Assembly: GCA_934654795.1 (NCBI GenBank)
Contig: CAKUGT010000003.1
Coordinates: 38,616-102,615 of the forward strand
Length of the DNA: 64,000 nucleotides
From: an uncultured Collinsella sp.
GTDB taxonomy: Bacteria; Actinomycetota; Coriobacteriia; Coriobacteriales; Coriobacteriaceae
Reading direction: 5' to 3'
In this document: positions 13,979 to 62,912 of the stretch, piece by piece
Layout of the letters: every line of letters begins with the position of its first letter
Numbering within the stretch: position 1 is the stretch's first letter
Notes under the pieces: generated by a model
What the model saw: only the letters and a program-made list of their open reading frames with translations
What the model was told of the DNA's origin: nothing
The model's database searches: none
Made by a program: the position numbers and the translations under genes

Positions 13979-14010
13979 ACCGTTTACGGGCCAAAAATAA
14001 CCGTTTGGCA
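13979..14010 (+). promoter_or_regulatory. Sugar-promoter direct repeat, 21-bp spacing (nagE)
   Basis: ACCGTTTACGG (13979-13989) is followed exactly 21 bp later by ACCGTTTGGCA (14000-14010), on the strand of nagE, about 200 bp before its start codon. One of five such pairs in the window. Confidence 0.6.
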
Positions 14011-14045
14011 ACGATATAGTAATTTGAACGAAATGTGGTGGACGT

Positions 14046-14073
14046 TTGAATTGAGTGTGTGCTAACGTACATA
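14046..14073 (+). promoter_or_regulatory. Probable nagE promoter
   Basis: TTGAAT (14046-14051), 16 bp, TACATA (14068-14073). It lies about 35 bp downstream of the ACCGTTT direct repeat. The leader behind it contains small hairpins (AACCC/GGGTT near 14080-14099). The -10 is imperfect. Confidence 0.45.
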
Positions 14074-14206
14074 CCAGCAACCCAAAAAGGGACTGGGTTG
14101 TCTAAGTTTGCGCACCAATGCCGGCAAGCGGAGAAGCCGGTATGCACAAGGCGCGGACATGGGACTCGTTGGTGAACAACGAAAGAAAGGTTGGAGGAGA
14201 TACCAT

Positions 14207-15697
14207 ATGATGAAGTACCTCCAGAAGCTCGGCAAAGCGCTGATGCTTCCCGTCGCGGCGCTTCCCGTCGCAGGTATTCTTATGGGTGTGGGCTACCTGC
14301 TCGCTCCCGCAGTCATGGGTGCTGCCGGTGACACTACCGGTTTTGCCTATACCGCCGGCTTCCTGCTCATCAAGGCAGGCGGCGCTCTTATCGATAACAT
14401 GGCCTGGCTGTTCGCAGTCGGCGCCGCTGTCGGCCTTGCCGACGATCACGATGGCACCGCTGGCCTCGCTGGCCTCGTCGCCTTCCTGATGATCCAGCAG
14501 CTCCTGAACCCCGCTGTTGTTGGCACCATTCGTGGTATGGACGCCGATGCTCAGACCGCTTGGCTTGCCACGACCGAGGGCATCGCGTTCTCCAAGATCG
14601 CTGGTAACTCCTTCATCGGCATCCTGTCCGCCATCATCGGTGGCACTTGCTACAACAAGTTCAAGGACACCCGTCTTCCCGACTGGCTGGCCTTCTTCTC
14701 CGGCAAGCGTTGCGTCGCCATCATGACCGCCGTCATCTGCATCGTCGTCTCCGTTGTCCTGCTCTTCGCTTGGCCGCTCATCTTCGGTGCTCTTGTTGCT
14801 CTCGGTGAGGGTATCGCCGCCATGGGTGGCATCGGCGCTGGCATCTACGCCTTCCTCAACCGCCTGCTCATCCCGACCGGTCTGCACCACGCTCTGAACA
14901 ACGTGTTCTGGTTCGACACCATCGGCCTGGGCGACCTGACCCACTTCTGGGCTGGCGAGACCTCCGCTGACGTCAAGTGGAGCCTCGGTATGTACATGTC
15001 CGGCTTCTTCCCCTGCATGATGTTCGGTATCCCGGGCGCTGCCCTGGCTATGGTTCAGACCGCTAAGAACAAGAAGGCTGCTATCGGCCTGGTTGTCTCC
15101 GCTGCTATCTGCGCCTTTGTCTGCGGCGTCACCGAGCCCTTCGAGTTCGGCTTCATGTTCCTGTGCTTCCCGCTCTACGTCGTGTACGCTGCCCTGTACG
15201 GCATCTTCACCATCATCACCTACTATGTTGGTTTCCGTGCTGGCTTCTGCTTCTCCGCTGGTGCTACCGACCTTCTGTTCTCCTCTAGCCTCCCGGCTGC
15301 TGCCAACACCTGGGCGATCATCCCGCTGGGCATCGCTGCCTTCGTGGTCTTCTACCTCGTGTTCCGCTTCGCCATCACCAAGTTCAACCTCATGACCCCT
15401 GGTCGCGAGGATGAGGATGTCGAGGAGACCTCCGCTTCCGCCGCTGCTGGCGACGACAAGTTCGCCGCTCTGGCCGCCGCTGTTCTCGCTGCCGTCGGTG
15501 GCAAGGAGAACGTCAAGACCGTTGACTGCTGCGCTACTCGCCTGCGCTTCGAGCTTGGCGATTCCGCTCTGGTCGACGAGGCTGCCTGCAAGAAGGCTGG
15601 CGCTCTGGGTGTCATGAAGATGGACAAGGGTGCTACCCAGGTCATCATCGGCACGCAGGTCCAGGCTGTTGCCGAGGAGCTCAAGAAGCTTCTCTAA
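14207..15697 (+). CDS. nagE: N-acetylglucosamine PTS permease, EIICB
   Basis: Imports N-acetylglucosamine and delivers it as GlcNAc-6-phosphate. The ATG at 14207 lies 6 nt after GGAGGAGA; 496 residues. The IIC domain (about 1-395) has many membrane helices and the RLLIPTGLHHALNN motif of the glucose/GlcNAc superfamily. The IIB domain (about 420-496) carries VDCCATRLRF, with C442 directly before ATRLR as the likely phosphorylated cysteine. No IIA domain is fused, so a separate EIIA must serve it. NagR-type operators and an ACCGTTT direct repeat lie upstream. The GlcNAc assignment follows from the nagA and GntR neighbours. Confidence 0.92.
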   Translation: MMKYLQKLGKALMLPVAALPVAGILMGVGYLLAPAVMGAAGDTTGFAYTAGFLLIKAGGALIDNMAWLFAVGAAVGLADDHDGTAGLAGLVAFLMIQQLLNPAVVGTIRGMDADAQTAWLATTEGIAFSKIAGNSFIGILSAIIGGTCYNKFKDTRLPDWLAFFSGKRCVAIMTAVICIVVSVVLLFAWPLIFGALVALGEGIAAMGGIGAGIYAFLNRLLIPTGLHHALNNVFWFDTIGLGDLTHFWAGETSADVKWSLGMYMSGFFPCMMFGIPGAALAMVQTAKNKKAAIGLVVSAAICAFVCGVTEPFEFGFMFLCFPLYVVYAALYGIFTIITYYVGFRAGFCFSAGATDLLFSSSLPAAANTWAIIPLGIAAFVVFYLVFRFAITKFNLMTPGREDEDVEETSASAAAGDDKFAALAAAVLAAVGGKENVKTVDCCATRLRFELGDSALVDEAACKKAGALGVMKMDKGATQVIIGTQVQAVAEELKKLL

Positions 15698-15722
15698 GCC
15701 TTAAAGACGTATCTGTCTTGCA

Positions 15723-15757
15723 AAGGGTCGTCCCGCTCCGCGGGGGCGGCCCTTTTT
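15723..15757 (+). terminator. Rho-independent terminator after nagE
   Basis: AGGGTCGTCCCGC and GCGGGGGCGGCCCT-type arms around TCC, followed by TTTTT. Separates nagE from the GntR gene. Confidence 0.88.
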
Positions 15758-15870
15758 GCTACCTCGATACTTGATGCAGCGGTGTGATTGGTATTACAGC
15801 GCATAGGCTATCAACCGGCAAACAATACTGAAATGTACGTGTTGACCTGCTGTTATTCCATTAAAACTGC

Positions 15871-15898
15871 TATAGTACGTGGTGTCTGGTTACAACCA
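15871..15898 (+). promoter_or_regulatory. Promoter with GntR operator, GntR gene
   Basis: A -10-like TATAGT (15871-15876) is followed by TGGTTACAACCA (15887-15898), a perfect TGGT-N4-ACCA site placed at about the transcription start. This fits autorepression by the gene that begins at 15930. No good -35 is seen. Confidence 0.6.
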
Positions 15899-15929
15899 AT
15901 TTTGAGTCATTTATCCGGCAGGTATCATT

Positions 15930-16661: not shown

Positions 16662-16804
16662 CGTTATTGGGTATAAACGGCTTGGCGTATTTTGTGACGG
16701 GTGCAACGTACGCCGAACCATGGATCGCAACGAACAATCGCTCAAATGAACAATGCAGTGGTTTTTGACCCGCCCTAAAACGCACTGCGAGTACGGGAGC
16801 TTAG

Positions 16805-17974
16805 ATGAGCACGTATGCTATCAAGGCCGACAAGTTCTTTTTGCCGGCAGGGCCGCAGCTGGGTGGCTACCTTATGGTCGAAGACGGCGTCTTTGGCGCT
16901 TGGCAGGCCGATGAGCCCGATTGCGAGATCAAGGACTACGCGGGCACGTGGATTGCGCCGGGCATGGTGGACACCCACATCCACGGCTTCTATAACCATG
17001 CCACGACTGATAACGATGCCGAGGGCATCAACATCAGCTCGACCGAGCTCGCCCGTCGCGGTACCACCAGCTGGCTGCCCACGACCTTTACCGACGGTGT
17101 GGAGCAGATTAAGGACGCCTGCGCCGCCATCGCTCAGGCTGACGAGGAGCGCGGCCCAGAGTTTTGCGGTGCCCGCATCCAGGGTATCTACCTGGAGGGC
17201 CCCTTCTTTACCATGAAGCACGTGGGCGCCCAGAACCCCGCCTTTTTGATTGACCCGTCCGAGGAAATCTTTGACGAGTGGCAGGAGGCCGCCGGCGGAC
17301 GCATCGTCAAGAGCGCCATGGCAGCCGAGCGCGACGGCGTTGCCGCCTACGCCGCAGCCTTGAGCGCCAAGGGCGTGGTGACCTGCATCGGTCACTCCGA
17401 CGCTACCTATGACGAGTGCGCCGCAGCTATTAACGCTGGCGCCAGCTGCTTTACCCACACCTACAATGGCCAGCGCGGCCTGCATCACCGTGAGCCGGGC
17501 GTTGTGGGCGCTGCCATGACTACCCCCAACACGTATGCCGAGATCATCTGCGACGGCAAGCATGTGAACCCTGCTGCCATCAAGGCACTGCTGCAGGCCA
17601 AGGGCTGGCAGCATACGGTGCTCATCACCGACTGCCTGGGCTGCGGTGGTATGCCCGAGGGCAAGTACACCAGCGGCGGCATGGATGTCGTTATGAAGGA
17701 CAACCTGTGCTGGCTTGCCGACGGCTCCGCCATCGCCGGCTCGGTGCTCACGCTTGCCCAGGGCGTCAAGAACATTGTCGACTGGGGCCTTGCCAGCGCC
17801 GATATCGCTATTCGCATGGCGACCGAGGTTCCGGCGCGTTCCGCCCATGTCGACGACAAGTGCGGTAGCATTATGCCGGGGCGCGACGCCGACTTTGTCG
17901 TGTTCAATCCCGACCTTACCCTGGTCGAGACGTATGTGGGCGGCAACAGCGTCGGTAACGCGTTTACCGCGTAG
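16805..17974 (+). CDS. nagA: N-acetylglucosamine-6-phosphate deacetylase (copy 1)
   Basis: Removes the acetyl group from GlcNAc-6-P, giving GlcN-6-P. 389 residues. Visible amidohydrolase metal motifs: VDTHIHGFYNH (about 56-66), the metal-binding glutamate in YLEGPFF (about 134-140), GHSDATYDE (about 197-205) and THTYNGQRGLHHREPG (about 217-232). It shares the bulk of its protein sequence with the copy at 22117, while third codon positions differ freely, so the pair is an old duplication under selection. This copy lies in the nagE/NagR half, followed by a yhcH-type gene 32 bp on. Confidence 0.93.
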   Translation: MSTYAIKADKFFLPAGPQLGGYLMVEDGVFGAWQADEPDCEIKDYAGTWIAPGMVDTHIHGFYNHATTDNDAEGINISSTELARRGTTSWLPTTFTDGVEQIKDACAAIAQADEERGPEFCGARIQGIYLEGPFFTMKHVGAQNPAFLIDPSEEIFDEWQEAAGGRIVKSAMAAERDGVAAYAAALSAKGVVTCIGHSDATYDECAAAINAGASCFTHTYNGQRGLHHREPGVVGAAMTTPNTYAEIICDGKHVNPAAIKALLQAKGWQHTVLITDCLGCGGMPEGKYTSGGMDVVMKDNLCWLADGSAIAGSVLTLAQGVKNIVDWGLASADIAIRMATEVPARSAHVDDKCGSIMPGRDADFVVFNPDLTLVETYVGGNSVGNAFTA

Positions 17975-18006
17975 CTGCCAAAGTGACGATCCGAGAGGGG
18001 ATTTAG

Positions 18007-19616: not shown

Positions 19617-19698
19617 ATCGTTAGAAACCTAAAATTAAAAAGTAATTTACCAGCTGGTTTAATTCTATTTCATTAAAGCCGTTCATCGTCATTTCGCT

Positions 19699-19709
19699 AC
19701 CGTTTACGG
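19699..19709 (+). promoter_or_regulatory. Sugar-promoter motif ACCGTTTACGG
   Basis: Single copy, oriented toward the GntR2-agaS-nagA unit. The position 21 bp further (19720) has only a poor match. Confidence 0.45.
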
Positions 19710-19989
19710 ACCACTTCAGATTATGGCTACATAATTGCGTTAATGCGTTCATAATAGGCAAGACGTTTAGCTGAGTTATGACGCGTGCGTTTGGAGACCC
19801 AACGCTTGATGAACTTGCCGAACGCGCGCGGGTTGTTGGTCGTGAGGGAGTCGATCTCAAGAAACTCGAGATTGTGACAATGATGAAGATGATGAGCTGT
19901 AGTGTCGCTATTAGCCCATTTATGGGACATGTTGATGCATTACCTGAAGGCTGAAGTATTGGTCAATTACTAATTACGTGGAGAATATC

Positions 19990-20724
19990 ATGACGCGCAA
20001 GGGGCGCAGGCAACCGCTATACGATCAGCTCGTAGATATTCTGATCGAGAAAATTGATCATGAATATCAGCCAGGCGATTTGATTCCGTCCGAACGTGAG
20101 CTTGCCGAACGTTACGGACTTTCGCGATCGACTGTCCGACTTGCAATTCAGGAACTTGAGTATCTTGGTCGGATTGTGCGACAACAAGGTCGTGGTACGT
20201 TTGTTGCTGATCGACTAACCCAAGCAACAAATCTTACCCAATCGTACAGTTTTACTGAACAGATGAAAGCGATGGGCCGGCTGCCAGAAACAACCATCTT
20301 AGAGTTCTGTGAAATGGAAGCAGATAAAACGCTCTCGATACAAATGGGGATTCGTTTGGGTGAAAAGGTATTAAAGCTCAAACGTTTACGGATGGCAGAT
20401 GGTATACCTATGATGGTTGAGCGTAGCTATCTTCCAACAAGGCTCTTTATTTCTCTCAAGCGTCCTTTACTCGAACAAAAGCCCCTTTACGATGTCATCG
20501 AGCGGGATTATCAGCAGAAAATTCGAGTAGCGGATGAGGAGTTCTCTGCGGGTATAGCACGTCCATGTGATGCTCGGCTTCTAGGTATTGGTGAAGGCAC
20601 GCCAGTTCTGGACATAGTCCGAACTACTCACAACACCCAAAATGATGTTGTCGAGTTCACGCTTTCGGTGGCTCGTGCGGACAAGTTTAAGTACAGGATT
20701 TCTCATTATCGAGATACTCAGTGA
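19990..20724 (+). CDS. GntR/HutC-family regulator, second NagR-like paralogue
   Basis: 244 residues; the ATG at 19990 follows GTGGAG, while a GTG at 19978 lies inside that site and is less likely. It has the same winged-helix plus UTRA layout as the regulator at 15930, with most positions identical through the helix (ERELAERYGLSRSTVRLAIQELEYLG) and the UTRA domain. Its codons are much richer in A/T than those of its neighbours, suggesting a different origin or relaxed composition. It heads a unit with agaS and nagA copy 2, so it may sense a galactosamine-type phosphate; this is inference. Confidence 0.9.
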   Translation: MTRKGRRQPLYDQLVDILIEKIDHEYQPGDLIPSERELAERYGLSRSTVRLAIQELEYLGRIVRQQGRGTFVADRLTQATNLTQSYSFTEQMKAMGRLPETTILEFCEMEADKTLSIQMGIRLGEKVLKLKRLRMADGIPMMVERSYLPTRLFISLKRPLLEQKPLYDVIERDYQQKIRVADEEFSAGIARPCDARLLGIGEGTPVLDIVRTTHNTQNDVVEFTLSVARADKFKYRISHYRDTQ

Positions 20725-27178: not shown

Positions 27179-28099
27179 TTAACGTATCACAGAACGGCTC
27201 AGCATGACGATCTGATGCCTGTATCCACGAAGGGCTTGTCCGAGCGTGAAGATATTCTGGGGCAGGCAAATACCGTTCATGGAGTCCCCGATATGTTGGA
27301 GGTCAGCGCCGGCTGCTTTTGCCGCAAGGCCTATTTTCTTAATGGTCTCGCTGTCGCAAGAGTCTTGACTCGTCCCGTTCGCCGCCATGACGAGAACCTT
27401 CTCTTCAATTGACTTGCCTACGTTGTGGGATCGTACAAAGTCTACGATGGCGCGCAGGTCTGCTTCTTGGAAGCAAGGGACAGTGTAGGGGGCTGGCACG
27501 AGAAGGATATCGACGCCGAGGTCAACAAACTTGCGCGCAATTTCGAGCGTCATGACAGGTTCCGCAACGCCTGCCCCATGCATTTTTCCAGCTATGATCA
27601 GTCCATTGAAATGCTCTTTGGAGAGTTTGATTGAATGGGCGATCGCATCGTTGGAGACGCCAGTTCCAGGGTTGCCTGTGAGGCAAATAAAATCAAATCC
27701 GAGTTCGTTGGCCTTTTCTAGGGTCTTGGGAGAGACACGCCGACCCATAGGGATTTCTGTACGGGATTCAGACATTTCAGCATCATTATCAACTGGTTCC
27801 AGATTGACGCCAACGGGCCTTCCGCATGCTCGCTTCACCCAAGTGACCGGGTTTTCAGTGAGTTCATCTGGAGTGCCGGCAATCACCGGATTGAACACAT
27901 CGAGTGCGTTAAACAGAAGCAGATCGGCACCTGCGGCACGTTCGATTTCGGCATTAGTAACGCCGGCGAGAAATTGGGAAGAGGGTACGTTTTCCGCCAT
28001 GATGGTACGTCCCTCGGAAGCCAGAATTGCCTGCTTTAGATCCATGGGTGACGTGGCGGCAAAATCGGACGCGGACATGTTCAGCAATCGTTTGGGCAT
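27179..28099 (-). CDS. DUF7916-like protein (PEP-phosphonomutase/TIM-barrel-like)
   Basis: 306 residues: MPKRLLNMSASDFAATSPMDLKQAILASEGRTIMAENV at the start (region), NAEIERAAGADLLLFNALDVFNPVI, and MGRRVSPKTLEKANELGFDFICLTGNPGTGVSN. These match a family often labelled PEP phosphonomutase-like or DUF7916, found beside lactose/cellobiose-type PTS genes; its function is unknown. The pattern of alternating strands and helices fits a TIM barrel. It shares an intergenic promoter region with the EIICB at 28456 and is followed by a GntR regulator. A role in handling the imported phosphosugar is a guess from context. Confidence 0.78.
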   Translation of the reverse strand: MPKRLLNMSASDFAATSPMDLKQAILASEGRTIMAENVPSSQFLAGVTNAEIERAAGADLLLFNALDVFNPVIAGTPDELTENPVTWVKRACGRPVGVNLEPVDNDAEMSESRTEIPMGRRVSPKTLEKANELGFDFICLTGNPGTGVSNDAIAHSIKLSKEHFNGLIIAGKMHGAGVAEPVMTLEIARKFVDLGVDILLVPAPYTVPCFQEADLRAIVDFVRSHNVGKSIEEKVLVMAANGTSQDSCDSETIKKIGLAAKAAGADLQHIGDSMNGICLPQNIFTLGQALRGYRHQIVMLSRSVIR

Positions 28100-28132: not shown

Positions 28133-28164
28133 GACATTGTCCCTAATATTGTTACAACAATGTC
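28133..28164. promoter_or_regulatory. Nested inverted repeat, candidate GntR operator
   Basis: ATTGTT-AC-AACAAT (28148-28161) is a perfect palindrome; the outer GACATTGT (28133-28140) also pairs with ACAATGTC (28157-28164). It lies just upstream of the DUF7916-GntR operon and ahead of the divergent EIICB. Confidence 0.6.
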
Positions 28165-28184
28165 TCTAATATGTTATATCCAAT

Positions 28185-28195
28185 CGGTAAACGGT
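28185..28195 (-). promoter_or_regulatory. Sugar-promoter motif (minus strand, DUF7916 gene)
   Basis: CGGTAAACGGT, i.e. ACCGTTTACCG on the minus strand, 86 bp before the DUF7916-like start. The second position 21 bp on has only a weak match. Confidence 0.45.
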
Positions 28196-28260: not shown

Positions 28261-28271
28261 ACCGTTCACCG
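28261..28271 (+). promoter_or_regulatory. Sugar-promoter motif (EIICB at 28456)
   Basis: ACCGTTCACCG on the plus strand, 185 bp before the EIICB start. Single copy. Confidence 0.45.
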
Positions 28272-28455: not shown

Positions 28456-30150
28456 ATGGACGCTATCGTCAAATTCCTTGAAAAACACCAGGCCCTCTTC
28501 GACAAAATCTCAAGGAACATTTATCTGGTGGCGATTAAGGATGGCTTTCTCTCGAATATGCCAATTGTGCTGTTCTCGAGTCTGTTCCTTCTTCTCTCGA
28601 CGCTCCCTGCCTATGTAGGCATCACGCTTCCGTCTGAGGTGCTGGATTTCTTTAATAAAATCTATGCATATACCATGGGGCTTCTTGGCATTATGGTGGC
28701 CGGTACCACGGCGAGCTCACTTGCCATGTCGATGAACCGCCGCATGCCTTCGGGCAAATCTCTCAACCCCACCTCGTGCATGGTTTGTGCCATGTGCGGC
28801 ATGTTCTTGCTGTCGGTGACGAACGATGTGGTCTCGATTGGCGGAGCGGATACATCTGTTTTTGAAACCGGCTATATGGGAACCAAGGGTTTTCTCGCTG
28901 CGTTCGTATCTGCATTCTTGACCGTTAATATCTATAAGGTGTGCATTAGCCATAATGTGACGATCAAGCTCCCCAAAGAGGTCCCTGGCTCTATTGCGCA
29001 GAGTTTTCGCGATATCTTTGCGTTTGGGTTTTCAATCCTTGCGTGCGCCGTTATCGATCTCGCGAGCCGTACGCTGCTTGCCGTGCCGTTCGCCAATTTG
29101 GTATCCGCTCTAATCTCGCCGCTGTTCTCCGCGGTCGACACCTATCCTGGCATGGCGCTTATCGAAGGCGCGGTCGCACTTTTCCAATTTATGGGTATTC
29201 ACGGTGCTTCGGTTGTCATGAGCCCGATCAATGCTGCGCTCTACGGCAATACCGTTACCAATCTTGAGGTTTTCCAAGCAGGTGGACACCCGTCAATTGC
29301 TCTCACGCAGGACTTTACAAGCTTCATCGGCGGTCTGGGCGGTTCTGGCTGCACGTTCATCGTTCCTATTATCCTGATCATGTTCATGCGTTCCAAGCAG
29401 CTTAAAGCTATGGGCAAGGCATCGATTATCCCGGTGATTTTTGGAGTTAACGAGCCCGTTCTCTTCGGTATGCCGATTGTTCTCAATCCCTATATGTTCG
29501 TGCCCTTCCTAGCGGCTCCTATGGTCAACGCCATAATCGGTAAGTTTTTCATTGACGTAATTGGAATGAACGCCCCCATGTATACCATGCCGTGGGCGCT
29601 TCCCGGCCCAATCGGTGCATTTCTTACCACAGGTCTTGATCTGCGTTCTCTTGTATTGATGGCAGTGCTGCTGGTCGTTGACTTTGTAATTTACTATCCG
29701 TTCTGTAAGGCATACGACCATCAGCTTTGTTTGGAAGAGTCTGCAAAGGAGGCTGCAGGAACCTCGGATGCAGATGCTATTGCCGCGCAGGAAAATGTCG
29801 CAAAAGCACTTGAGGCAGTAAAGGACAAGGCGGAGCAGATTCGCGTGCTTGTGCTTTGCCAGGGTGCCGGCACTTCGACTCTCTTGGCAAATGCTCTTCG
29901 CGAAGGTGCCGCTGCTAAGGGTATTGATCTGGTTTCTCAGTCCGGTGCGTATGGAAGCCACTATGAGACAATGGATCAGTACAACGTGATTGTTCTGGCG
30001 CCCCAGGCTCGCATGTACTATGACGCTATGAAGGCCGATACCGATCGTCTTGGAATTAAACTGCTCACCACAAGGGGCAAGCAGTATATCGACCTTACCA
30101 ACGATCCCGAAGGTGCAATTGACTGGATCGTTCAGGAGCTGGCCAAATAG
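28456..30150 (+). CDS. Lactose/cellobiose-family PTS permease, EIICB
   Basis: 564 residues from the ATG at 28456 (after GAAAGGAT). The IIC domain (about 1-425) has the family start MDAIVKFLEKHQALFDKISRN, many membrane helices and NEPVLFGMPIVLNPYM near 345, the conserved loop of lactose/cellobiose EIICs. A linker then leads to the IIB domain with VLVLCQGAGTS, C468 being the phosphorylated cysteine. It closely resembles the two LacE proteins at 32558 and 37529. No phospho-glycosidase is adjacent; instead the divergent operon encodes a DUF7916-like protein and a GntR regulator, so the substrate is open. EIIA is probably the LacF at 40880 or another gene. Confidence 0.92.
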   Translation: MDAIVKFLEKHQALFDKISRNIYLVAIKDGFLSNMPIVLFSSLFLLLSTLPAYVGITLPSEVLDFFNKIYAYTMGLLGIMVAGTTASSLAMSMNRRMPSGKSLNPTSCMVCAMCGMFLLSVTNDVVSIGGADTSVFETGYMGTKGFLAAFVSAFLTVNIYKVCISHNVTIKLPKEVPGSIAQSFRDIFAFGFSILACAVIDLASRTLLAVPFANLVSALISPLFSAVDTYPGMALIEGAVALFQFMGIHGASVVMSPINAALYGNTVTNLEVFQAGGHPSIALTQDFTSFIGGLGGSGCTFIVPIILIMFMRSKQLKAMGKASIIPVIFGVNEPVLFGMPIVLNPYMFVPFLAAPMVNAIIGKFFIDVIGMNAPMYTMPWALPGPIGAFLTTGLDLRSLVLMAVLLVVDFVIYYPFCKAYDHQLCLEESAKEAAGTSDADAIAAQENVAKALEAVKDKAEQIRVLVLCQGAGTSTLLANALREGAAAKGIDLVSQSGAYGSHYETMDQYNVIVLAPQARMYYDAMKADTDRLGIKLLTTRGKQYIDLTNDPEGAIDWIVQELAK

Positions 30151-32557: not shown

Positions 32558-34336
32558 CTAGTCGAGGTTCTCGCGGAGCCACTTGATGGCGCCAGCGGGG
32601 TCGCGAGTAAGGTCGATATATTCCTTACCGCGGGGAGCGAGCAGCTTAATGCCCAGACGATCGGTGTCGGCCTTCATGTCGTTGTAGTAGCTACGAACCT
32701 GCGGGGCAAGCACGATAACGTCGTACTGATCCATGATGGCGGTGTGCTGGCCATAGGCGCCTGCGGAGGAAGCGATGTTCTCTCCGGTCTGCGCGGCACC
32801 TTCCTTGATGGCGTTGGCGAGCATGGCAGAGGTGCCGGCGCCGGCGCACAGGACGAGGACCTTCAGGCCATCGACATCCTTCTTGGCGGATGCATCGGCA
32901 GCGGGCTCGGGCTGATCGGCGACAGGCTTGCTGTCGGCGGCGGCAACGGTCGTCTCGACGGAAGCGGTAGCCTGCTCGACAGCGGGCGCAGAGGCGTTGG
33001 CGGCGATGGCAGCAGCACCATCGGACTCGAGACCCAGCTCGGCGGCGCGCTCGGCCTCCTGGTCGCAGAGCAGCTTATCGTATGCCTTCAAGAACGGCAG
33101 GTAGATGATGGCGTCCAGCAAGATGATGACCGCGACAAATACCAGGGCAATAAGCTGGAAGTTCGTGGTGATGAAGATACCGATGGGGGCGGGGGTGGCC
33201 CAAGGCACCACGAAGGAGAAGCCGTTCATGCCCACGTTATCGATAAAGAACTTGGCAACACTCACGTTGACGCAGCCGGCGGCAACAAAGGGGATGAGCA
33301 TGTAGGGGTTAAGGATCATCGGCGCGCCAAAGAGCAGCGGCTCGTTGACAGCAAAGGCAACAGGAACAATCGAGGCCTTACCGACGGCCTTGAGCTGCTT
33401 GGACTTCATAAAGAGAATCAGCAGAAGCGGCACGATGAACGTGGCGCCGGTGCCGCCGAACTCACCCACGAGCGACATGTTAAAGGTGAGGGAGTGGGCA
33501 GGGTGGCCACCGGCCAGCAGAACCTGCAGGTTCTCGGCCTGGTTGGCAAGACGGATGGGGTCGATGCCCGGCTGGACGATCGAGGGGCCGTGGACGCCAA
33601 TGAACCAGAAGAACGCTGTGGCTGCCTGGATAAGGATAAGGCCAGGATAGGTTTCTGCAGCGGTAAAGAGCGGGGAGAGCAGTTTGATAAGCAGCTCGGA
33701 GAACGGAACGCCCATGAGGTTGCGCACGACGACATCGATGATGCCGCAGATGATGACGGCGCCGCCAAAGGGGATAATGTCGCGGAAGTTCTGAGCGATG
33801 GCGCCCGGAACCTCCTTGGGCAGCTTAATGGTCAGATCGCGCGAGACGCAGAACTTATAGACCCACACGGTAATGAACGCGGCGATATAGGCCGAGAACA
33901 GACCGCGCGTACCCATGCTGGTGCAGTCGAAGACCGAAAGCTCGGAGCCGTTGAACTTGGTGGTGAACTGCGTAACGGCGAGCAAAAGCATGCTGCACTG
34001 GGCGGCCACCATGGTGGAGCCGTCGTTGAGCACCTTGCCGGCGGGCATGCGACGGTTCATGGATGCCGTGAAGTTCTTGGCAGTGGTGCCGGCAACCATG
34101 ATGCCCATGACACCCATGGTGAAGTTGTAGAGCTTGTTGCACCAGTCGATGAGCGGCTGGGGCAGCGTGATGCCGACCACGCCGGGAAGCGTGGCGATCA
34201 GCAGAAAGATCGAAGAGGTGAGGACGATGGGCATGCACCCAAGGAATCCGTCCTTGATGGCCTGGAGGTAGATGTTCCTCGAGATCTTCTCAAAGAATGG
34301 TTGATGCTTTTCGAGCATCTTTACGATGGCGTCCAT
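32558..34336 (-). CDS. lacE: Lactose-family PTS permease EIICB, copy 1
   Basis: 592 residues: IIC domain (about 1-430) with NEPLLFGAPMILNPYM near 340, an Ala/Glu/Pro-rich linker (about 435-485), and IIB with VLVLCAGAGTS, C497 being the phosphorylated cysteine. First gene of a lacE-lacG operon divergent from the LacI-type regulator at 34612. The LacI operator at 34439-34460 and an ACCGTT-type pair at 34507-34538 lie in the divergent promoter region. Lactose is the obvious substrate, but the two parallel modules suggest different galactosides. Confidence 0.92.
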   Translation of the reverse strand: MDAIVKMLEKHQPFFEKISRNIYLQAIKDGFLGCMPIVLTSSIFLLIATLPGVVGITLPQPLIDWCNKLYNFTMGVMGIMVAGTTAKNFTASMNRRMPAGKVLNDGSTMVAAQCSMLLLAVTQFTTKFNGSELSVFDCTSMGTRGLFSAYIAAFITVWVYKFCVSRDLTIKLPKEVPGAIAQNFRDIIPFGGAVIICGIIDVVVRNLMGVPFSELLIKLLSPLFTAAETYPGLILIQAATAFFWFIGVHGPSIVQPGIDPIRLANQAENLQVLLAGGHPAHSLTFNMSLVGEFGGTGATFIVPLLLILFMKSKQLKAVGKASIVPVAFAVNEPLLFGAPMILNPYMLIPFVAAGCVNVSVAKFFIDNVGMNGFSFVVPWATPAPIGIFITTNFQLIALVFVAVIILLDAIIYLPFLKAYDKLLCDQEAERAAELGLESDGAAAIAANASAPAVEQATASVETTVAAADSKPVADQPEPAADASAKKDVDGLKVLVLCAGAGTSAMLANAIKEGAAQTGENIASSAGAYGQHTAIMDQYDVIVLAPQVRSYYNDMKADTDRLGIKLLAPRGKEYIDLTRDPAGAIKWLRENLD

Positions 34337-34506: not shown

Positions 34507-34538
34507 GGGTGAGTGGTCGATTTTGTCCGGTAAACGGT
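34507..34538 (-). promoter_or_regulatory. Sugar-promoter direct repeat, 21-bp spacing (lacE copy 1)
   Basis: On the minus strand ACCGTTTACCG (34538-34528), then a degenerate ACCACTCACCC 21 bp later (34517-34507), pointing toward lacE copy 1, whose start is 171 bp further. Confidence 0.5.
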
Positions 34539-39538: not shown

Positions 39539-39549
39539 CGGTGAACGGT
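39539..39549 (-). promoter_or_regulatory. Sugar-promoter motif (lacE copy 2)
   Basis: CGGTGAACGGT, ACCGTTCACCG on the minus strand, toward lacE copy 2 (235 bp to its start). Single copy. Confidence 0.45.
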
Positions 39550-39630
39550 AGGTTTTGGGTGGTGAGCGTATGGTGGGGAGGCGTTGGATATACTTGAAGA
39601 CGTTTCATTTGACTGCGTAGGGTGCCACCA

Positions 39631-40725: not shown

Positions 40726-40757
40726 ACCGTTCACGGACGAAAATTGACCGTTCATAG
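40726..40757 (+). promoter_or_regulatory. Sugar-promoter direct repeat, 21-bp spacing (lacF)
   Basis: ACCGTTCACGG (40726-40736), and exactly 21 bp later ACCGTTCATAG (40747-40757), 123 bp before lacF on its strand. The TTGACC inside the second copy could double as a -35. Confidence 0.6.
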
Positions 40758-40879: not shown

Positions 40880-41218
40880 ATGGCAACCAAAGAAGAAATC
40901 TCGATGGTTGGATTCGAGATTGTCGCATACGCAGGTGACGCCCAGACCGATTTGCTTGCGGCACTCGATGCTGCTCGCGAGGGTGATTTTGAGAAGGCCG
41001 AACAGCTGCACAAGGATGCCAGCGATGCACTTATCGGCGCCCACGACACGCAGACCAAGCTGCTTTCGCAGGAGGCCGGCGGCGGCGAGATGGAGATGAC
41101 CTTCATCATGGCCCATGCTCAGGATACTCTCATGACCACCATGATTCTGGAGAAGCAGACCCGCTTTACCATCGATGCCTACAAGCGCATCGCCGATCTT
41201 GAGGCCAAGCTCGCCTAA
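40880..41218 (+). CDS. lacF: Lactose-family PTS EIIA
   Basis: 112 residues, the usual length of LacF. Trimeric cytosolic phosphocarrier that takes phosphate from HPr and passes it to the IIB cysteine of LacE. The active-site histidine is H79 in MAHAQDTLM. FEIVAYAGDAQTDLLAALDAA near the N-terminus is family-typical. It is the only lactose-family EIIA in this window, so it probably serves both lacE copies and perhaps the EIICB at 28456. RBS GAAAGGA. It follows the LacI-type gene by 214 bp and has its own promoter signals and terminator. Confidence 0.95.
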   Translation: MATKEEISMVGFEIVAYAGDAQTDLLAALDAAREGDFEKAEQLHKDASDALIGAHDTQTKLLSQEAGGGEMEMTFIMAHAQDTLMTTMILEKQTRFTIDAYKRIADLEAKLA

Positions 41219-42556: not shown

Positions 42557-42588
42557 GTCCAAACGGTCGACAATCATCCGTGAACGGT
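42557..42588 (-). promoter_or_regulatory. Sugar-promoter direct repeat, 21-bp spacing (lacA region)
   Basis: On the minus strand ACCGTTCACGG (42588-42578) then ACCGTTTGGAC (42567-42557), 21 bp apart. It is upstream of lacA but in the opposite orientation to most other cases. Confidence 0.55.
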
Positions 42589-42759: not shown

Positions 42760-43188
42760 ATGAGGGTTGTAATCGCTTCCGATGCCGACGGTATGTCGAT
42801 GAAGGAGTCCATCAAGGAGATGCTCATCGCCGACGGTCACGAGGTCGTCGACTATTCCGAGACCCCTGCCGCGGACTTTGTCGACTCTGCGACCGCCGTT
42901 GCCAAGGACCTGCTGGAGCACAAGGATTCCCAGGGCTTTGCCTTCGATAAGTACGGCGTCGGTTCCTATATGGCCGCCGTCAAGATGAAGGGCATGGTCG
43001 TTGCCAACATTTCCGACGAGCGCTCTGCCTACATGACCCGCGAGCACAACGGTTCGCGCATGGTCACCATGGGCCCGGGCGTCGTTGGCACCGAGGTCGC
43101 CAAGAAGATCGCTCGCGAGTTCCTGCGCGCCCAGTACGCCGGCGGTCGTCACCAGATTCGTGTCGACATGCTCAACAAGATGGCCTAA
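42760..43188 (+). CDS. lacA: Galactose-6-phosphate isomerase subunit LacA
   Basis: With LacB converts galactose-6-P to tagatose-6-P. 142 residues, the standard LacA length, with RpiB/LacA/LacB fold: MRVVIASDADGMSMKESIKEML, VDYSETPAADFVDSA, and RVDMLNKM at the end. RBS AAGGAGG. It lacks the CGTGIG cysteine loop found in LacB, as expected for LacA. First of lacA-lacB-lacX-lacC. Confidence 0.95.
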   Translation: MRVVIASDADGMSMKESIKEMLIADGHEVVDYSETPAADFVDSATAVAKDLLEHKDSQGFAFDKYGVGSYMAAVKMKGMVVANISDERSAYMTREHNGSRMVTMGPGVVGTEVAKKIAREFLRAQYAGGRHQIRVDMLNKMA

Positions 43189-47584: not shown

Positions 47585-49213
47585 CTACAGCGAGTCGATG
47601 AAGCGCTGCTGGGCGGCGCGGCCGGCCTCGTCCCACTTAAAGACGCCGGCGTTGTCGAGCACGTGGCCAAACACCACGCCGACCTCCTCGTGCAGGATAT
47701 CGATGGCGTTGTCCGCCGTAAGCTCGTCGGCGCGGCGGGCAAAAATGTCCTCGGCCCATGCGGCGTGGCTGCGGCAAAGGTCGTCGCCCTCGAGCGCGGT
47801 GGCAAGGTCGTAGCTCGCGTCGACCTTGGCTGCCAGCAGGTGCTCGCGAACAGCACCGAGCTCGGGAACCAGGCGCGGCGGAAGAATGGCCAGGCCCATG
47901 ACCTCAATCAGGCCGATGTTCTCCTTCTTAATGTGGTGATACTCGGCATGCGGATGGAACACGCCCAGCGGATGCTCATCGGTCGTAATGTTGCAGCGAA
48001 GCGCCAGGTAGGCCTCGTAGATATCGCCACCGGCATTGCCGCGGGAGTCCACGCGGCGGATGACGGGCGTCACGGTGTTGTGAGCCACGCCGTCCGCCGT
48101 GTGCGCGATGACACCCACGGACTCGTCGGTCCACTCGCGCCAGGCGAGAATGATCTTCTCGGCGGCATCGAGCAGCTGAGCACGGTCGTGCGAGCGCAGG
48201 CGCAGCACCGAGAGCGGCCACTGCAGCACGGTGCCGGTGACCTGGTCAAATCCGGGCACGCTAAACTGCGAGACCTCGGCCGCGTGCATCATCGGGAACT
48301 CGTGCGCGCCACCCTGGAAATGGTCATGCGACAGGATCGAGCCGCCCACGATGGGCAGGTCGGCGTTGGAGCCGATAAAGTAGTGCGGGAACAGGTCCAC
48401 AAAGTCGAGCAGGCAGGAGAGACCCTTGCGATTGACGTGCATCGGACGATGTTCGGAGCTCATGGCAATGCAGTGCTCGTTAAAGTACGCGTACGGGCTG
48501 TACTGGAAGCCCCAGCGCTCGCCGTCGAGCTGGATGGGGATAACGCGCAGATTCTGGCGAGCGGGGTGAGCGCCGCCGTCGGCTGCGGCGGAGCGTCCGG
48601 GATAGCCCTCGTTTTCGATGCAGAGCTGGCAGGCGGGATACTTCTCGCCCGTGTTCTTGGCAGCGCCGGCCGCGGCAATGTCGCGCGGGTCCTTCTCGGG
48701 CTTGGACAGGTTGATGGTAATCTCAAGATCGCCCCAGTTGGTTGGGGTGCTCCATTTGATGTTGCGCGCGATGGCGGCGCGGCGCACATAGCCGGCGTCG
48801 CAGCACAGGCCGTAGAACCAGTCGGTCGCGGCCTTGGGCTCGTTGACGCCCATGCGTCCGTTGAACTCCTCGTTTACAACCGAAGGCCTCGGCATAAGCA
48901 CACCCATGATGCGCATGGCGATGCGGTCGCGGCCCGACGCCGTGTCCTCGGCAGTGCCGTTGGCGACGGCGGCCTCGGAAAGCGCGGCGAGCGTGCCCTC
49001 AAGATCAAAGTCGGGGAGGGTATCGGGGTGCAAAAGCGAGAGCTTCTCGGTCTGCAGCGCCCAGGTCATGTCGAGCGCGGGGCCTGTGGCGCCAATGCAC
49101 TCAAGAATGGTGTTGTAGACCCAGATGCGGTCGTCCTGCCCGATCATGGATCGGTGGATGGCGTACTCGATCAGGTTCTGCGCAGCCTCGCGCACGTCGG
49201 TCATTACAGCCAT
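47585..49213 (-). CDS. galT: UDP-glucose-hexose-1-phosphate uridylyltransferase, class II
   Basis: Leloir enzyme exchanging UMP between UDP-glucose and galactose-1-P. 542 residues of the longer GalT2 type of Gram-positive bacteria (Lactobacillus, Bacillus), not the E. coli type. Markers: ATDWFYGLCCDAGYVRRAAIARN near 128, LPIVGGSILSHDHFQGGAHEFPM (about 295-317) and LGVFHPHAEYHHIKKENIGLIEVMGLAILP (about 421-450). Overlaps galK: the stop-start sequence TAATG offers a start at 49204 as an alternative to 49213. Coupled galK-galT expression is expected. Confidence 0.94.
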   Translation of the reverse strand: MAVMTDVREAAQNLIEYAIHRSMIGQDDRIWVYNTILECIGATGPALDMTWALQTEKLSLLHPDTLPDFDLEGTLAALSEAAVANGTAEDTASGRDRIAMRIMGVLMPRPSVVNEEFNGRMGVNEPKAATDWFYGLCCDAGYVRRAAIARNIKWSTPTNWGDLEITINLSKPEKDPRDIAAAGAAKNTGEKYPACQLCIENEGYPGRSAAADGGAHPARQNLRVIPIQLDGERWGFQYSPYAYFNEHCIAMSSEHRPMHVNRKGLSCLLDFVDLFPHYFIGSNADLPIVGGSILSHDHFQGGAHEFPMMHAAEVSQFSVPGFDQVTGTVLQWPLSVLRLRSHDRAQLLDAAEKIILAWREWTDESVGVIAHTADGVAHNTVTPVIRRVDSRGNAGGDIYEAYLALRCNITTDEHPLGVFHPHAEYHHIKKENIGLIEVMGLAILPPRLVPELGAVREHLLAAKVDASYDLATALEGDDLCRSHAAWAEDIFARRADELTADNAIDILHEEVGVVFGHVLDNAGVFKWDEAGRAAQQRFIDSL

Positions 49214-50409
49214 GCCGCGTATGCCCCCTTGTCAGAGATAGCGTAGTGACGGGCGGAACCCTCGCCAAGCCAGCCGTTCATCTTGGCAATGAAAGTGTCG
49301 ACCAAATCGAGCGGCACGAAGGCCTGGATGGTGCCGCCAAAGCCGCCGCCATGGATGCGGACGGCGCCGCGGCCGTCGAGCACGTGCTCGGCAAGGGCCA
49401 GGGCATACATGGAGGGCTGCTCGGAGCCCAGCTTGGCAACGACATTCTGCAGGTACATGGCGGAGCTGGCGCCGGACTCGCGCGTCAGGACCAGGAACTG
49501 GTCGATGTCGCCGGCGTTAAGAGCTGCCCAGCGCTTGTCGACCAGGCCGTTCTCGTACCAGTAGTGAACGGCGCGCAGGCAGGCGCGGTCGCCCAGCTTG
49601 GCGCGCAGCTCGGGCAGCTTGGCGTCAAAGTCGGCAACGTCGACCTCGCACAGACGTGCCTTGCCAAACTCGGCGGCAACATCCTGCATCTCGCGCGGAA
49701 CGGCGGCGTAGTCGTCGGTAGCGGCGACGTGGTCGGCGCCCACCTTAACGAGCACGAGCGCATAGCCGTGATCCTCAAAGTTAAGCTCGAGCTTCTGTGT
49801 TTTAGGCTGAACCTGGTCCTCAAAGTCCATGTAGGCAAGGCCGCCCAGACACACGGCAGCCTGGTCCATCAGGCCGCAGGGCTTGCCGTAGTAGTTGTTC
49901 TCGGTGCGCTGGCTCATCTGAGCGAGTGCGACGGGCTCAATGGCGGGTGCGCCCCAGAGCGTCTCCATGGCGCGGCCGTATGCTGCCTCGACGGCAGCGG
50001 AGCTCGAAAGGCCGCCGCCCGAGGGGACGGAGCAGGTGAAGGCGAAGTCGAAGCCGTGGGGCTCAACGCCCAGGGCTGCAACTTCATGGGCCATGCCGCG
50101 GACGAGACTCGCGGACGTGCCCTTCTCGGACTCCTGAACATCCAGCGTGTCGAGCGTGATCTCAAAGGTGGGGTAGCCCTCGTCGGCAACGCGGACCTTG
50201 TTGGTGTCGGTTGCCACGGCAATGCCGTCGACGGCGACATCGAGCGAGCCGGCGATGACGTGGCCGCCCTCGTGGTCGGTGTGGTTGCCGCTGATCTCGG
50301 AGCGGCCGGGCGCGTGCACGTAGAGCACCTGGCGGTCGCCGATGGGGCCAAACTCCTCCTCAAACAGCTTGGTGAGCGTAGCGAGCGTCTTTTCGTCGGG
50401 GGCGGTCAT
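49204..50409 (-). CDS. galK: Galactokinase
   Basis: Phosphorylates alpha-galactose at C1. The ATG at 50409 follows AAGGAAAGGACC; 401 residues (GHMP superfamily). The galactose motif is APGRSEISGNHTDHEGG (about 33-49), the ATP loop PSGGGLSSSAAVE (129-141) and the third motif IHGGGFGGTIQAFV near 360-373. First gene of galK-galT, divergent from the LacI-type regulator at 50747, with three operators of the ATGnnnACGTnnnCAT type in the shared promoter region. No galE is in the window. Confidence 0.95.
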   Translation of the reverse strand: MTAPDEKTLATLTKLFEEEFGPIGDRQVLYVHAPGRSEISGNHTDHEGGHVIAGSLDVAVDGIAVATDTNKVRVADEGYPTFEITLDTLDVQESEKGTSASLVRGMAHEVAALGVEPHGFDFAFTCSVPSGGGLSSSAAVEAAYGRAMETLWGAPAIEPVALAQMSQRTENNYYGKPCGLMDQAAVCLGGLAYMDFEDQVQPKTQKLELNFEDHGYALVLVKVGADHVAATDDYAAVPREMQDVAAEFGKARLCEVDVADFDAKLPELRAKLGDRACLRAVHYWYENGLVDKRWAALNAGDIDQFLVLTRESGASSAMYLQNVVAKLGSEQPSMYALALAEHVLDGRGAVRIHGGGFGGTIQAFVPLDLVDTFIAKMNGWLGEGSARHYAISDKGAYAAWL

Positions 50410-50561: not shown

Positions 50562-50593
50562 TGGTAATCGGTAGATTTTCGGCCGTGAACGGT
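50562..50593 (-). promoter_or_regulatory. Sugar-promoter direct repeat, 21-bp spacing (galK)
   Basis: On the minus strand ACCGTTCACGG (50593-50583), then ACCGATTACCA (50572-50562), 21 bp apart, 153 bp from the galK start and pointing toward it. Confidence 0.58.
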
Positions 50594-61443: not shown

Positions 61444-61457
61444 GCGACCCAACCCAG

Positions 61458-61488
61458 AGCCACCATGAAGGTCTCCTTTATGGTGGCT
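61458..61488 (+). terminator. Hairpin after the permease gene
   Basis: AGCCACCATGAAGG with CCTTTATGGTGGCT across TCT, then TGTTTGTCT. A weak T-run. Confidence 0.7.
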
Positions 61489-61494
61489 TGTTTG

Positions 61495-61630
61495 TCTCAA
61501 TCTGTAACATCAAGCTGGCAAAAATGTCTTTTCCTGTTACGGATTGAGATTATTCGGTGTGGGCCATGCGGTTTGTCTCGATCTGTAACAACAAGACGGG
61601 GATTTGGTCTCTATATGTTACAGATTGAGA
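61495..61630. repeat. BIME-like array, copies 9-10, 81-bp period
   Basis: Elements at 61495-61549 and 61576-61630, each 15+25+15 bp, starts 81 bp apart. They lie between the convergent 3' ends of the permease and the LuxR-type gene. Confidence 0.9.
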
Positions 61631-61704
61631 TAATTGAATTCGTGAACAAAAGGACGCCGCGAAAGAGTCGATTCTCTCGCGGCGGTTGGCGTTTGCCCAG
61701 ATGA

Positions 61705-61741
61705 AACCTGCCAAAATAAACCTGTCCCTTTTTGGCAGGTT
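61705..61741 (-). terminator. Hairpin overlapping the end of the LuxR-type gene
   Basis: AACCTGCCAAAA and TTTTGGCAGGTT pair around 13 nt, reaching into the stop codon of the minus-strand gene. It is probably its terminator. Confidence 0.6.
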
Positions 61742-62705
61742 ATCGCTTCCAGAAATGCAGGATCAACGTCGTGCGGTTTTGCTGTTCGGTTTTGACCAGG
61801 ATATTGTGGATGTGGGTCTTGACGGTGCCCACGGCAAGGAATAGCTCGTCAGCGATCTCTTGATTCGACTTGCCCAGCACGACCAGACGCATGACCTCGG
61901 TCTCGCGGTTGGAGAGCTTGTAGGCGTTGCGATAGAAGGGCATCTGCTCTTCGATGTGCCGATCAAGATCGCTGACGTTCTTTTCCTCGGGCGCCTCCTG
62001 CATGCGGATTGAAAGCACGTGGTAGGAGTAGATGATCAGCAGGATGGCAAAGTAGCACGCAAAGAAGTTCTCGCTAAAGTTGCGTTCGGACAGGTACAAC
62101 TGAAGCCAAGAGGGTGCCAAACTCATGGGGACTACCAGGATGTTGTAGAAGTCCTCGGCAACGATGCAACCAACCAGAATGGCGCCGATAATCAGGTGTT
62201 TCTTCTGGTTGTTAACACGTGCTTTCAACTCAACCTTCGTACTCTTGTGAGCCGTCCAAAAGATATACAGTCCCACAAAGACAAGGAATACCTGACGCAT
62301 CGTGTAGTAGAGCCACTGGTGCATGGGACCGTAGGGGACGGCGACGATAATCAGCAGCTCGCTCAACAAAAACGTTGCGACGGGGATAACGAACTGCTTT
62401 TTAGAATGCTTATCGAGCAAGTCCATGGCAATGGCCCAAATAAAAGCCTGCGAAGCGGTCGCCACAAGGGTCCGCAACACAGGCATGGTAATTGAGTAAT
62501 AGTCGCTTGCCGGAAAACTCTGGTTTTGCAGCGTGTATTCAAAAAAGAAGATTTCGGTCATCTCGATGGCATAGCAAATAAAAACGCCGCTGCCATAGAT
62601 AAAGAAGCGTCGACGAGACGAGGCATAGGCGGCAAGCGAAAGCACTGCCGTCACAATACAGATTACGAGTATTGCTAGGGTATAGAAGAACATCAGAGTG
62701 TTCAT
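61740..62705 (-). CDS. Membrane-anchored LuxR-family regulator, AguR-like
   Basis: 321 residues: about seven hydrophobic segments in residues 1-240 (for example 5-25, 36-52, 75-95, 105-122, 130-148, 172-192, 212-232) and a C-terminal LuxR helix-turn-helix (about 258-318) with LSNRETEVMRLVVLGKSNQEIADELFLAVGTVKTHIHNILVKT in region form. One-component membrane activators of this kind control agmatine deiminase operons (AguR of Lactococcus and Enterococcus). Divergence from the putrescine carbamoyltransferase gene at 63036 supports the same role here, sensing agmatine. Coriobacteriia carry many such regulators, so the ligand remains an inference. Confidence 0.88.
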   Translation of the reverse strand: MNTLMFFYTLAILVICIVTAVLSLAAYASSRRRFFIYGSGVFICYAIEMTEIFFFEYTLQNQSFPASDYYSITMPVLRTLVATASQAFIWAIAMDLLDKHSKKQFVIPVATFLLSELLIIVAVPYGPMHQWLYYTMRQVFLVFVGLYIFWTAHKSTKVELKARVNNQKKHLIIGAILVGCIVAEDFYNILVVPMSLAPSWLQLYLSERNFSENFFACYFAILLIIYSYHVLSIRMQEAPEEKNVSDLDRHIEEQMPFYRNAYKLSNRETEVMRLVVLGKSNQEIADELFLAVGTVKTHIHNILVKTEQQNRTTLILHFWKR

Positions 62706-62740
62706 CTGTCACCGTCCCATCTCATTTAATCTATGGCCGA

Positions 62741-62814
62741 ATCCTGTATATCCTGTGGGGTATAGACGTCTCGACCCTTCGTTCCATTGCAGATTAGGCG
62801 CCGAGATACAGGAT
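62741..62814. promoter_or_regulatory. Inverted ATCCTGTAT / ATACAGGAT pair
   Basis: ATCCTGTAT (62741-62749) and ATACAGGAT (62806-62814) are exact inverted copies in the divergent promoter region of the LuxR-type gene and ptcA. A second CCTGT word lies at 62752-62756. Candidate binding site for the regulator. Confidence 0.5.
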
Positions 62815-62822
62815 AGCTGTAT

Positions 62823-62833
62823 ACCGTTCGCGG
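62823..62833 (+). promoter_or_regulatory. Sugar-promoter-like motif, variant (ptcA region)
   Basis: ACCGTTCGCGG on the plus strand, 202 bp before ptcA. Single copy with one change in the right half. Confidence 0.35.
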
Positions 62834-62901
62834 TTCTAGATAGTAAACCCCCTGTAAACTCTTGACCTGCGGGTTTATATTGGATTAGAGAGGGTGTAAC
62901 T

Positions 62902-62912
62902 CCGTGAACGGT
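62902..62912 (-). promoter_or_regulatory. Sugar-promoter-like motif (minus strand, ptcA region)
   Basis: CCGTGAACGGT, ACCGTTCACGG on the minus strand, between the LuxR-type gene and ptcA. It shows the motif is not limited to sugar genes. Confidence 0.45.

Follow-up and report, generated by a model that had tools for sequence, protein, structure and literature searches.

A tandem direct repeat at catabolic promoters of Collinsella as a putative operator of a LytTR-domain response regulator

Background

LytTR-domain regulators bind at pairs of 9-bp direct repeats with 10-13 bp between them (PMC11347149; this and the other sources given by PMC number are cited from excerpts), and their sites have been described as sharing a common layout but no common consensus (PMC4847170). 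Printed examples are ACCACTTAC-12-ACCACTTAC and ACCGCTTGT-12-ACCGCTTAT, the figure between the repeats being the spacer in bp (PMC6193735), and the oligonucleotide used for BtsR contains ACCGCTTACATCCCTAAAATAACCACTCAG (PMC4847170). In the case of AgrA, the repeats nearest the promoter have their centre near -60, and an FFRCHNS motif has been linked to DNA binding (PMC4227749). More generally, the repeats of LytTR-regulated promoters lie upstream of the -35 element, with a reported bias to 10 bp. We analysed a 64,000-bp stretch of an uncultured Collinsella sp. (contig CAKUGT010000003.1, positions 38,616 to 102,615; hereafter the window), in which a preliminary description had noted a recurrent motif, ACCGTTYACSG, often repeated at exactly 21 bp. 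Probably a response regulator with a LytTR domain uses this motif as its operator, the likeliest candidate being one that we call RR2, which would most likely activate a broad catabolic regulon.

Collinsella is a genus of the human gut. Our literature searches, which covered little of the subscription literature, turned up no described Collinsella global carbon regulator or LytTR regulon, and to our knowledge, which is not that of a survey, a catabolic regulon this broad would, if real, be unusual for a LytTR protein. In the arrangement that we propose, a dimer would contact the operator through its two LytTR domains, one on each of two 9-bp direct half-sites, ACCGTTYRC; a spacer of 12 bp, leaning to A+T, sets the half-sites 21 bp (two helical turns) apart. 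RR2, the likeliest reader, is encoded beside a LytS-like histidine kinase that has a GAF domain and two transmembrane (TM) segments. From a position upstream of the promoter, RR2 would most likely activate genes for many phosphotransferase system (PTS) transporters, for glycosidases and for sugar kinases and isomerases, as well as those for BglG antiterminators, arginine deiminase and related functions, and the signal may be an intracellular metabolic cue sensed by the GAF domain.

Results and discussion

Motif, spacing and placement

All 10 exact matches to ACCGTTYACSG in the 64-kb window lay where the preliminary description had placed them, against 0.11-0.19 expected under Markov models of orders 1-4, and the copy at 62823 proved to be a one-mismatch variant. 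With two mismatches allowed there was no excess in the window (56 observed vs 54.5 expected), so the signal is confined to the near-exact form. The nearest genome compared (G001), which shares 27% of sampled 31-mers with the window, contained 27 exact matches vs 8 for the backwards control. A consensus from 45 tandem sites, the remainder of 60 after those more than 70% alike had been dropped, read ACCGTTYRCSG, an A/T-leaning spacer and then ACCGTTYR, with C favoured two bases 5' of the second copy; its six core letters were fixed by site selection and are uninformative, the letters outside the core being informative. The resulting 32-bp matrix singled out eight window sites at 22-35 bits (3493+, 13979+, 19678+, 34507-, 39539-, 40726+, 42557- and 50562-), four of which (3493, 13979, 40726 and 42557) were in the training set and are not independent; the next best scored 12.5 bits. 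The motif copies at 28185, 28261, 62823 and 62902 have a weak 21-bp partner at best. The five partners reported previously (the pairs at 13979, 34538, 40726, 42588 and 50593) were real, and to these we add a full pair at 3493/3514 and the partners at 19678 (of 19699) and, on the minus strand, 39560 (of 39539), which had been missed. In the last two pairs it is the second copy that matches perfectly; the earlier remark that the second copy is the more degenerate does not hold generally.

The spacing was examined by searching for ACCGTT followed by ACCGTT at 29 start-to-start distances (8-36 bp). Exactly 21 bp separated 13 of the 22 pairs in G001, and five other genomes together had 32 of their 81 pairs at this distance (7, 3, 6, 9 and 7 in G019, G065, G067, G095 and G117, counted from coordinates), which gives 45 of 103 for the six genomes pooled, the layout of a LytTR-regulated promoter. 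Around 30 exact sites unselected for a partner (the 37 of the window and G001 minus those more than 70% alike; a few are coding), the top offsets of a second ACCGTT were +21 (z 5.4) and -21 (z 3.2). None of the 13 G001 pairs at 21 bp was coding, vs five of the nine at other spacings.

Placement relative to genes was assessed with a simple codon-bias gene caller that missed some genes, in loci most of which had been fetched for holding such a pair, their coding or non-coding status playing no part. Among 101 non-identical ACCRYTYR-N13-ACCRYTYR sites, 79 lay no more than 500 bp upstream of the next called gene and were aimed at it, 21 were otherwise intergenic and one was coding. The window's family (f1; 25 genomes, delimited by nearness to G001) contributed 74 of these non-identical sites, 62 gene-directed, 12 intergenic without being gene-directed and none coding, and two further families (f2 and f3; 43 genomes) contributed 17 gene-directed sites, nine not so directed and one coding. 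These counts include near-copies from related genomes; 65 of the 79 gene-directed sites remain after dropping those more than 60% alike, at a median of 150 bp from the start codon. The earlier view of a shared promoter element with a regulator encoded elsewhere is supported by the numbers of sites across genomes, by the peak at 21 bp and by the position of the sites between genes and facing them. Intergenic enrichment and a 21-bp peak had been predicted for it, and both were found in the related genomes. Among the 14 window genes checked there was no AraC or LytTR regulator.

Conservation and distribution

The site of the galK-like galactokinase gene (49204..50409, minus strand; PF00288, PF10509) is ACCGTTCAC-12-ACCGATTAC at 50562..50593 (minus strand; 35.0 bits), and 17 of the 19 named Collinsella galK promoters compared have a match to it, L194 and L211 being the loci without one. 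Over 20 rows (the window and 19 Collinsella loci picked by galK alone, the unmatched Atopobium locus L213 being left out), mean agreement with the window was 0.96 for the repeats, 0.82 for the spacer and 0.83-0.86 for the flanks. The window galK protein is 97-99% identical to the 19 Collinsella records, of which 11 are named C. aerofaciens, and this places the window in Collinsella. For seven window sites compared with G001, changes numbered 5 of 126 bases in the repeats, 11 of 84 in the spacer and 62 of 840 in the flanks, which is the right direction and not significant (Fisher p 0.15). A 15-pair comparison gave 10 of 270 changed in the repeats and 26 of 180 in the spacer, figures biased by the selection of most pairs via the repeat pattern.

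Across 149 Coriobacteriia genomes the pattern ACCGTTY-N14-ACCGTTY (totals summed by hand) had 154 matches in f1 vs 5 for the backwards control, with 1-11 in each of the 25 genomes; the corresponding figures were 29 vs 9 in f2 and f3 and 19 vs 9 in the other 81 genomes. A stricter tandem pattern gave 28 vs 1 in the 43 genomes of f2 and f3, so a smaller real set of sites is likely there too. ACCRYTYA-type tandem sites in G001 numbered 17 vs 0 in the control.

Genes served

The 79 gene-directed sites led to 46 downstream protein groups over the three families, which were sorted manually after one member per group had been scanned. Carbohydrate functions formed the largest class with 19 groups (PTS parts, GH4, GH32, FGGY kinase, aldose epimerase, SIS-domain proteins, 6-phospho-N-acetylmuramidase, phosphoketolase and a sugar transporter of the major facilitator superfamily, MFS). 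Six groups concern amino acids or peptides (arginine deiminase, argininosuccinate synthase, diaminopropionate ammonia-lyase, a DcuC/YfcC-type carrier, an M20 peptidase and a periplasmic binding protein) and seven are regulators (BglG-type, DeoR-type, GntR, LacI, YheO-like, AraC-type and PadR). Another seven have other functions (a phosphoribosyltransferase domain, polyphosphate kinase, flavodoxin, MFS, short-chain dehydrogenase, amidohydrolase and a sub-cut-off metallo-beta-lactamase match), and the last seven are unassigned (DUF7916, one with a sub-cut-off isomerase match only and five without any match). The sugar operons to which the motif had first been ascribed thus stand as its largest class (19 of 46) and not its sole one, and that label was too narrow. 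Single-motif or weaker tandem sites would add glucuronate isomerase, a fructose-type PTS, a solute-binding protein and PPDK-domain and NusG-like proteins, and carbamate kinase has a weaker tandem site upstream (12.1 bits). A catabolic regulon is the label that these counts of downstream groups suggest. If it is correct, one two-component system joins sugar uptake and arginine use in Collinsella, and the regulon becomes predictable from sequence.

Two arrangements around these genes merit mention in their own right. In G109, two called genes (L104 405-1643 and 3492-4730, minus strand) begin with the same 15 residues as the arginine deiminase of L030, and each of these arginine deiminase-like genes is preceded by an intergenic tandem site, one of them reversed. 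Tandem sites oriented away from the adjoining gene, at 42557-42588 (minus strand) in the window and at L104 2021-2052 (plus strand), recur in related genomes.

The candidate regulator

LytTR proteins were present in 147 of the 149 Coriobacteriia genomes, including all 25 of f1. G001 has three, in two neighbouring pairs of kinase and REC-LytTR regulator and one AgrA-like pair, and RR2 is the regulator of the second pair (G001:C1:2009672-2010385). A search covering 42 of the 68 f1-f3 genomes found an RR2 orthologue in every one, at 80-100% identity in 25 f1 genomes, 66-71% in 11 of f2 and 58% in six of f3. The best NCBIfam model for RR2 was BtsR, at 174.5 bits against a cut-off of 246. RR2 is 33% identical overall to E. 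coli BtsR, the stretches HR.Y.VNL and VPVSRR being kept in both, and its FFRVHRR aligns by eye with the FFRCHNS of AgrA. RR2-linked kinases in five genomes have two TM segments by hydropathy, and the three that were scanned matched GAF_3 (over cut-off), His_kinase and HATPase_c, with no match to 5TMR_LYT. These two-TM GAF kinases thus differ from BtsS, which has the form of a pyruvate receptor with seven TM segments, and a cytoplasmic signal is a natural guess.

At the level of the DNA, the half-site ACCGTTYRC resembles both the ACCRCTTAY-type sites (PMC6193735) and the BtsR oligonucleotide, from which one or two core bases differ by eye. We located ACCGCTTACATCCCTAAAATAACCACTCAG in the btsT promoter of E. 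coli K-12, and the window at 13979 reads ACCGTTTACGGGCCAAAAATAACCGTTTGG, which resembles this BtsR operator. By layout, half-site and elimination, the tandem site would appear to work like a LytTR operator.

The site might instead be read by another LytTR protein, either RR1, a paralogue adjacent to RR2, or an AgrA-like one, or by several together, as could be expected from the three LytTR proteins of G001, two of them in neighbouring kinase-regulator pairs, and from a 9.8-bit half-site upstream of kinase 1. Four draft genomes of 98-99% completeness (G067, G079, G101 and G121), in which the RR2 orthologue was the sole LytTR protein detected, nevertheless carry 6, 4, 7 and 1 tandem sites, and we consider this alternative unlikely, although RR2 and another LytTR protein might share the reading in genomes that have both.

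The preliminary description had suggested either an AraC-type activator or a response regulator, and it is the latter suggestion that stood, with the LytTR family as the type. AraC-type activators are alike in having tandem direct half-sites, which can be 21 bp apart, and HTH_18 matches occur in 22 of the 25 f1 genomes; furthermore, a tandem site in G109 (L108 2087-2118, plus strand) lies 15 bp 5' of an AraC-type gene, nearer the start codon than other listed gene-directed sites. They are unlike in that HTH_18 was not found in three of the 25 site-bearing genomes, G043, G065 and G149 (PF00165 was not searched genome-wide), yet these hold 2, 3 and 8 tandem sites, and over the 25 genomes the number of AraC proteins is unrelated to the number of sites (Spearman -0.17, p 0.42). 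The half-site also agrees with printed LytTR sites (PMC6193735), and reading by an AraC-family activator is therefore highly improbable in our judgement.

Several observations weigh against RR2 as the reader, or against a LytTR operator of a catabolic regulon altogether. The LytTR domain of RR2 is just 27% identical to that of E. coli BtsR, and among some 30,000 positions in a 15-kb stretch the Collinsella matrix placed three others ahead of the btsT site, which came fourth. The RR2 operon had no strong site in a matrix scan of five genomes (L098, L100-L103), the 21.8-bit site of L102 serving a distant PTS gene. Over the 25 f1 genomes, the number of sites is unrelated to LytTR copy number (Spearman 0.15, p 0.49); RR2 is also kept in the site-poor families f2 and f3, and presence or absence thus gives no tie between RR2 and the site; and the single tandem site of G121 could be chance. 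Variable-gap ACCGTT pairs were no commoner than in the backwards control (22 vs 32 in G001, 81 vs 84 in the five genomes), the excess being limited to the 21-bp class (the spacings of the control pairs were not listed). Twelve of the 74 f1 sites were not aimed at the next called gene, partly because the caller missed genes, and 21 of the 46 downstream groups, seven of them regulators, fall outside carbohydrate, amino-acid and peptide functions. The lack of relation between site number and LytTR number, together with a LuxR-type regulator that adjoins sites in the window, would also suit a reader from an unrecognised regulator family, its likeness to LytTR sites being coincidental. The half-site and the 12-bp spacer fit printed LytTR sites, as the upstream position probably does too, and we hold such a coincidence to be quite unlikely.

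The same weighing extends to the direction of control. TATAAT-like matches at the 65 sites concentrate 60-104 bp past the first repeat (14, 9 and 8, together 31, in three 15-bp bins vs 58 in the other 19), a peak without a matched control set and one that any upstream element with a downstream promoter would show. Its position suggests that the repeats lie upstream of -35. A -10 or -35 element at one fixed distance from the repeats was looked for and none was found; T at +57, tried as a fixed promoter position, was rejected when the signal faded from 28 of 45 sites to 40 of 82. A repressor operator would find a precedent in CoxC, a LytTR repressor whose operator overlaps -35 (PMC11347149), against which the TATAAT-like peak would put the Collinsella repeats further upstream; repression is thus a rather unlikely alternative to activation by RR2.

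The sites of the window and their neighbouring genes

The first tandem site, ACCGTTTGC-12-ACCGTTTGC (3493..3524, plus strand; 34.7 bits), has a similar site in G109 and no counterpart in G001, and lies upstream of a gene for a phosphoribosyltransferase-domain protein (3722..4249, plus strand; PF00156 4e-07). The second, ACCGTTTAC-12-ACCGTTTGG (13979..14010, plus strand; 34.1 bits), with all 18 repeat bases kept in G001, precedes a nagE-like PTS EIIC-EIIB gene (14207..15697, plus strand; PF02378, PF00367). All 18 repeat bases are likewise kept at GCCGTTCAT-12-ACCGTTTAC (19678..19709, plus strand; 26.2 bits), in which the motif at 19699 is the second copy, and which precedes a GntR/UTRA regulator gene (19978..20724, plus strand; PF00392, PF07702) leading a GntR-agaS unit. 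The reading frames at 16805-17974 and 22117-23286 (plus strand) share near-identical first 25 residues, which suggests a duplicated GntR/aga-type unit. Further along, at 25689-26247 (minus strand), there is a pair of a ParE-type toxin and a Phd/YefM-like antitoxin, the antitoxin match being below cut-off.

An exact motif with a weak 21-bp partner (28164..28195, minus strand; 9.7 bits) lies ahead of the DUF7916 gene (27179..28099, minus strand; PF25509 1e-110), and in G105 the DUF7916 gene is likewise downstream of a site. A lone exact motif with no clear partner (28261..28271, plus strand; 6.2 bits scored as tandem) is followed by a gene for PTS EIIC and lactose/cellobiose IIB (28456..30150, plus strand; PF02378, PF02302). 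Two lacE-like PTS EIICB genes, both with PF02378 and PF02302, have sites of their own on the minus strand: the gene at 32558..34336 has ACCGTTTAC-12-ACCACTCAC (34507..34538; 28.7 bits), with one of 18 repeat bases changed in G001, and that at 37529..39304 has TACGCTCAC-12-ACCGTTCAC (39539..39570; 22.3 bits), with two of 18 changed and the originally listed motif as the second copy. The lacF-like PTS IIA gene (40880..41218, plus strand; PF02255) follows ACCGTTCAC-12-ACCGTTCAT (40726..40757, plus strand; 35.0 bits), at which all 18 repeat bases are kept in G001. The site at 42557..42588 (minus strand; 30.9 bits), ACCGTTCAC-12-ACCGTTTGG, is oriented away from the adjoining lacA/rpiB-like sugar isomerase gene (42760..43188, plus strand; PF02502) and has like sites in G109, G101 and G001.

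Near the end of the window, an intergenic one-mismatch motif found by motif scan (62823..62833, plus strand) lies ahead of an aspartate/ornithine carbamoyltransferase-family gene that reaches the window end (62982..64000, plus strand; PF02729, PF00185), and an exact motif with a weak upstream partner lies at 62902..62912 (minus strand; 12.5 bits). These copies are situated between the carbamoyltransferase gene and the gene for a LuxR-type helix-turn-helix (HTH) protein (61740-62705, minus strand), the N-terminus of which looks membrane-bound by eye. A separate word, ACCTGCGG, occurs at 13966, 62865 and 6774 (the last on the minus strand) and is possibly a second regulatory element. In the fetched loci its density was 0.183/kb in non-coding vs 0.074/kb in coding DNA (2.5x), 25 of 63 distinct places being non-coding, and a few copies adjoin tandem sites (13979, L009 and L132).

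Comparison with known systems

Catabolite control through CcpA-cre or through CRP is like the Collinsella arrangement in placing one type of site at many catabolic promoters. It is unlike it in that cre and CRP sites are inverted repeats and the Collinsella site is a direct one. The CcpA-cre system was rejected as a candidate, HPr kinase having been found in none of the 25 f1 genomes. The CRP-type HTH PF13545 had matches in all 25 of these genomes, over cut-off in at least 22, many of the matches listed being to a partial HTH.

LytTR Regulatory Systems of the HdrRM and BrsRM type share the 9-12-9 direct repeats, in Collinsella probably also upstream of -35, and the ACCACTTAC-like half-sites (PMC6193735). 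In these systems, which autoregulate, the partner of the LytTR protein is a membrane protein, whereas in Collinsella a REC-LytTR protein lies beside a histidine kinase and no strong own-operon site was found in the five genomes scanned.

The closest likeness is to BtsS/BtsR (YehU/YehT), with which the Collinsella system has in common ACCGYTYA-type half-sites, the 21-bp direct repeat, the REC-LytTR architecture and the best NCBIfam model for RR2. The differences are that RR2 scores below the BtsR equivalog cut-off and is 27% identical in its LytTR domain, that the Collinsella kinase has two TM segments and GAF, in contrast to BtsS, a pyruvate receptor with seven TM segments (PMC10653868), and that yjiY/btsT is reported as the sole target (PMC5431176) vs the 17 ACCRYTYA-type tandem sites of G001. 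Because RR2 falls short of the model cut-off and the sensor is of another type, we do not class the Collinsella system as BtsSR. It is conceivable, as a tentative proposal that we do not yet favour, that Coriobacteriaceae use a LytTR two-component system in place of CcpA or CRP, in which one kinase with two TM segments and GAF, together with its REC-LytTR partner, would sense the metabolic state inside the cell and turn on many promoters of sugar uptake, glycosidases and arginine catabolism simultaneously, a genome-wide regulon that would have grown from an ancestral, narrow BtsSR-like system.

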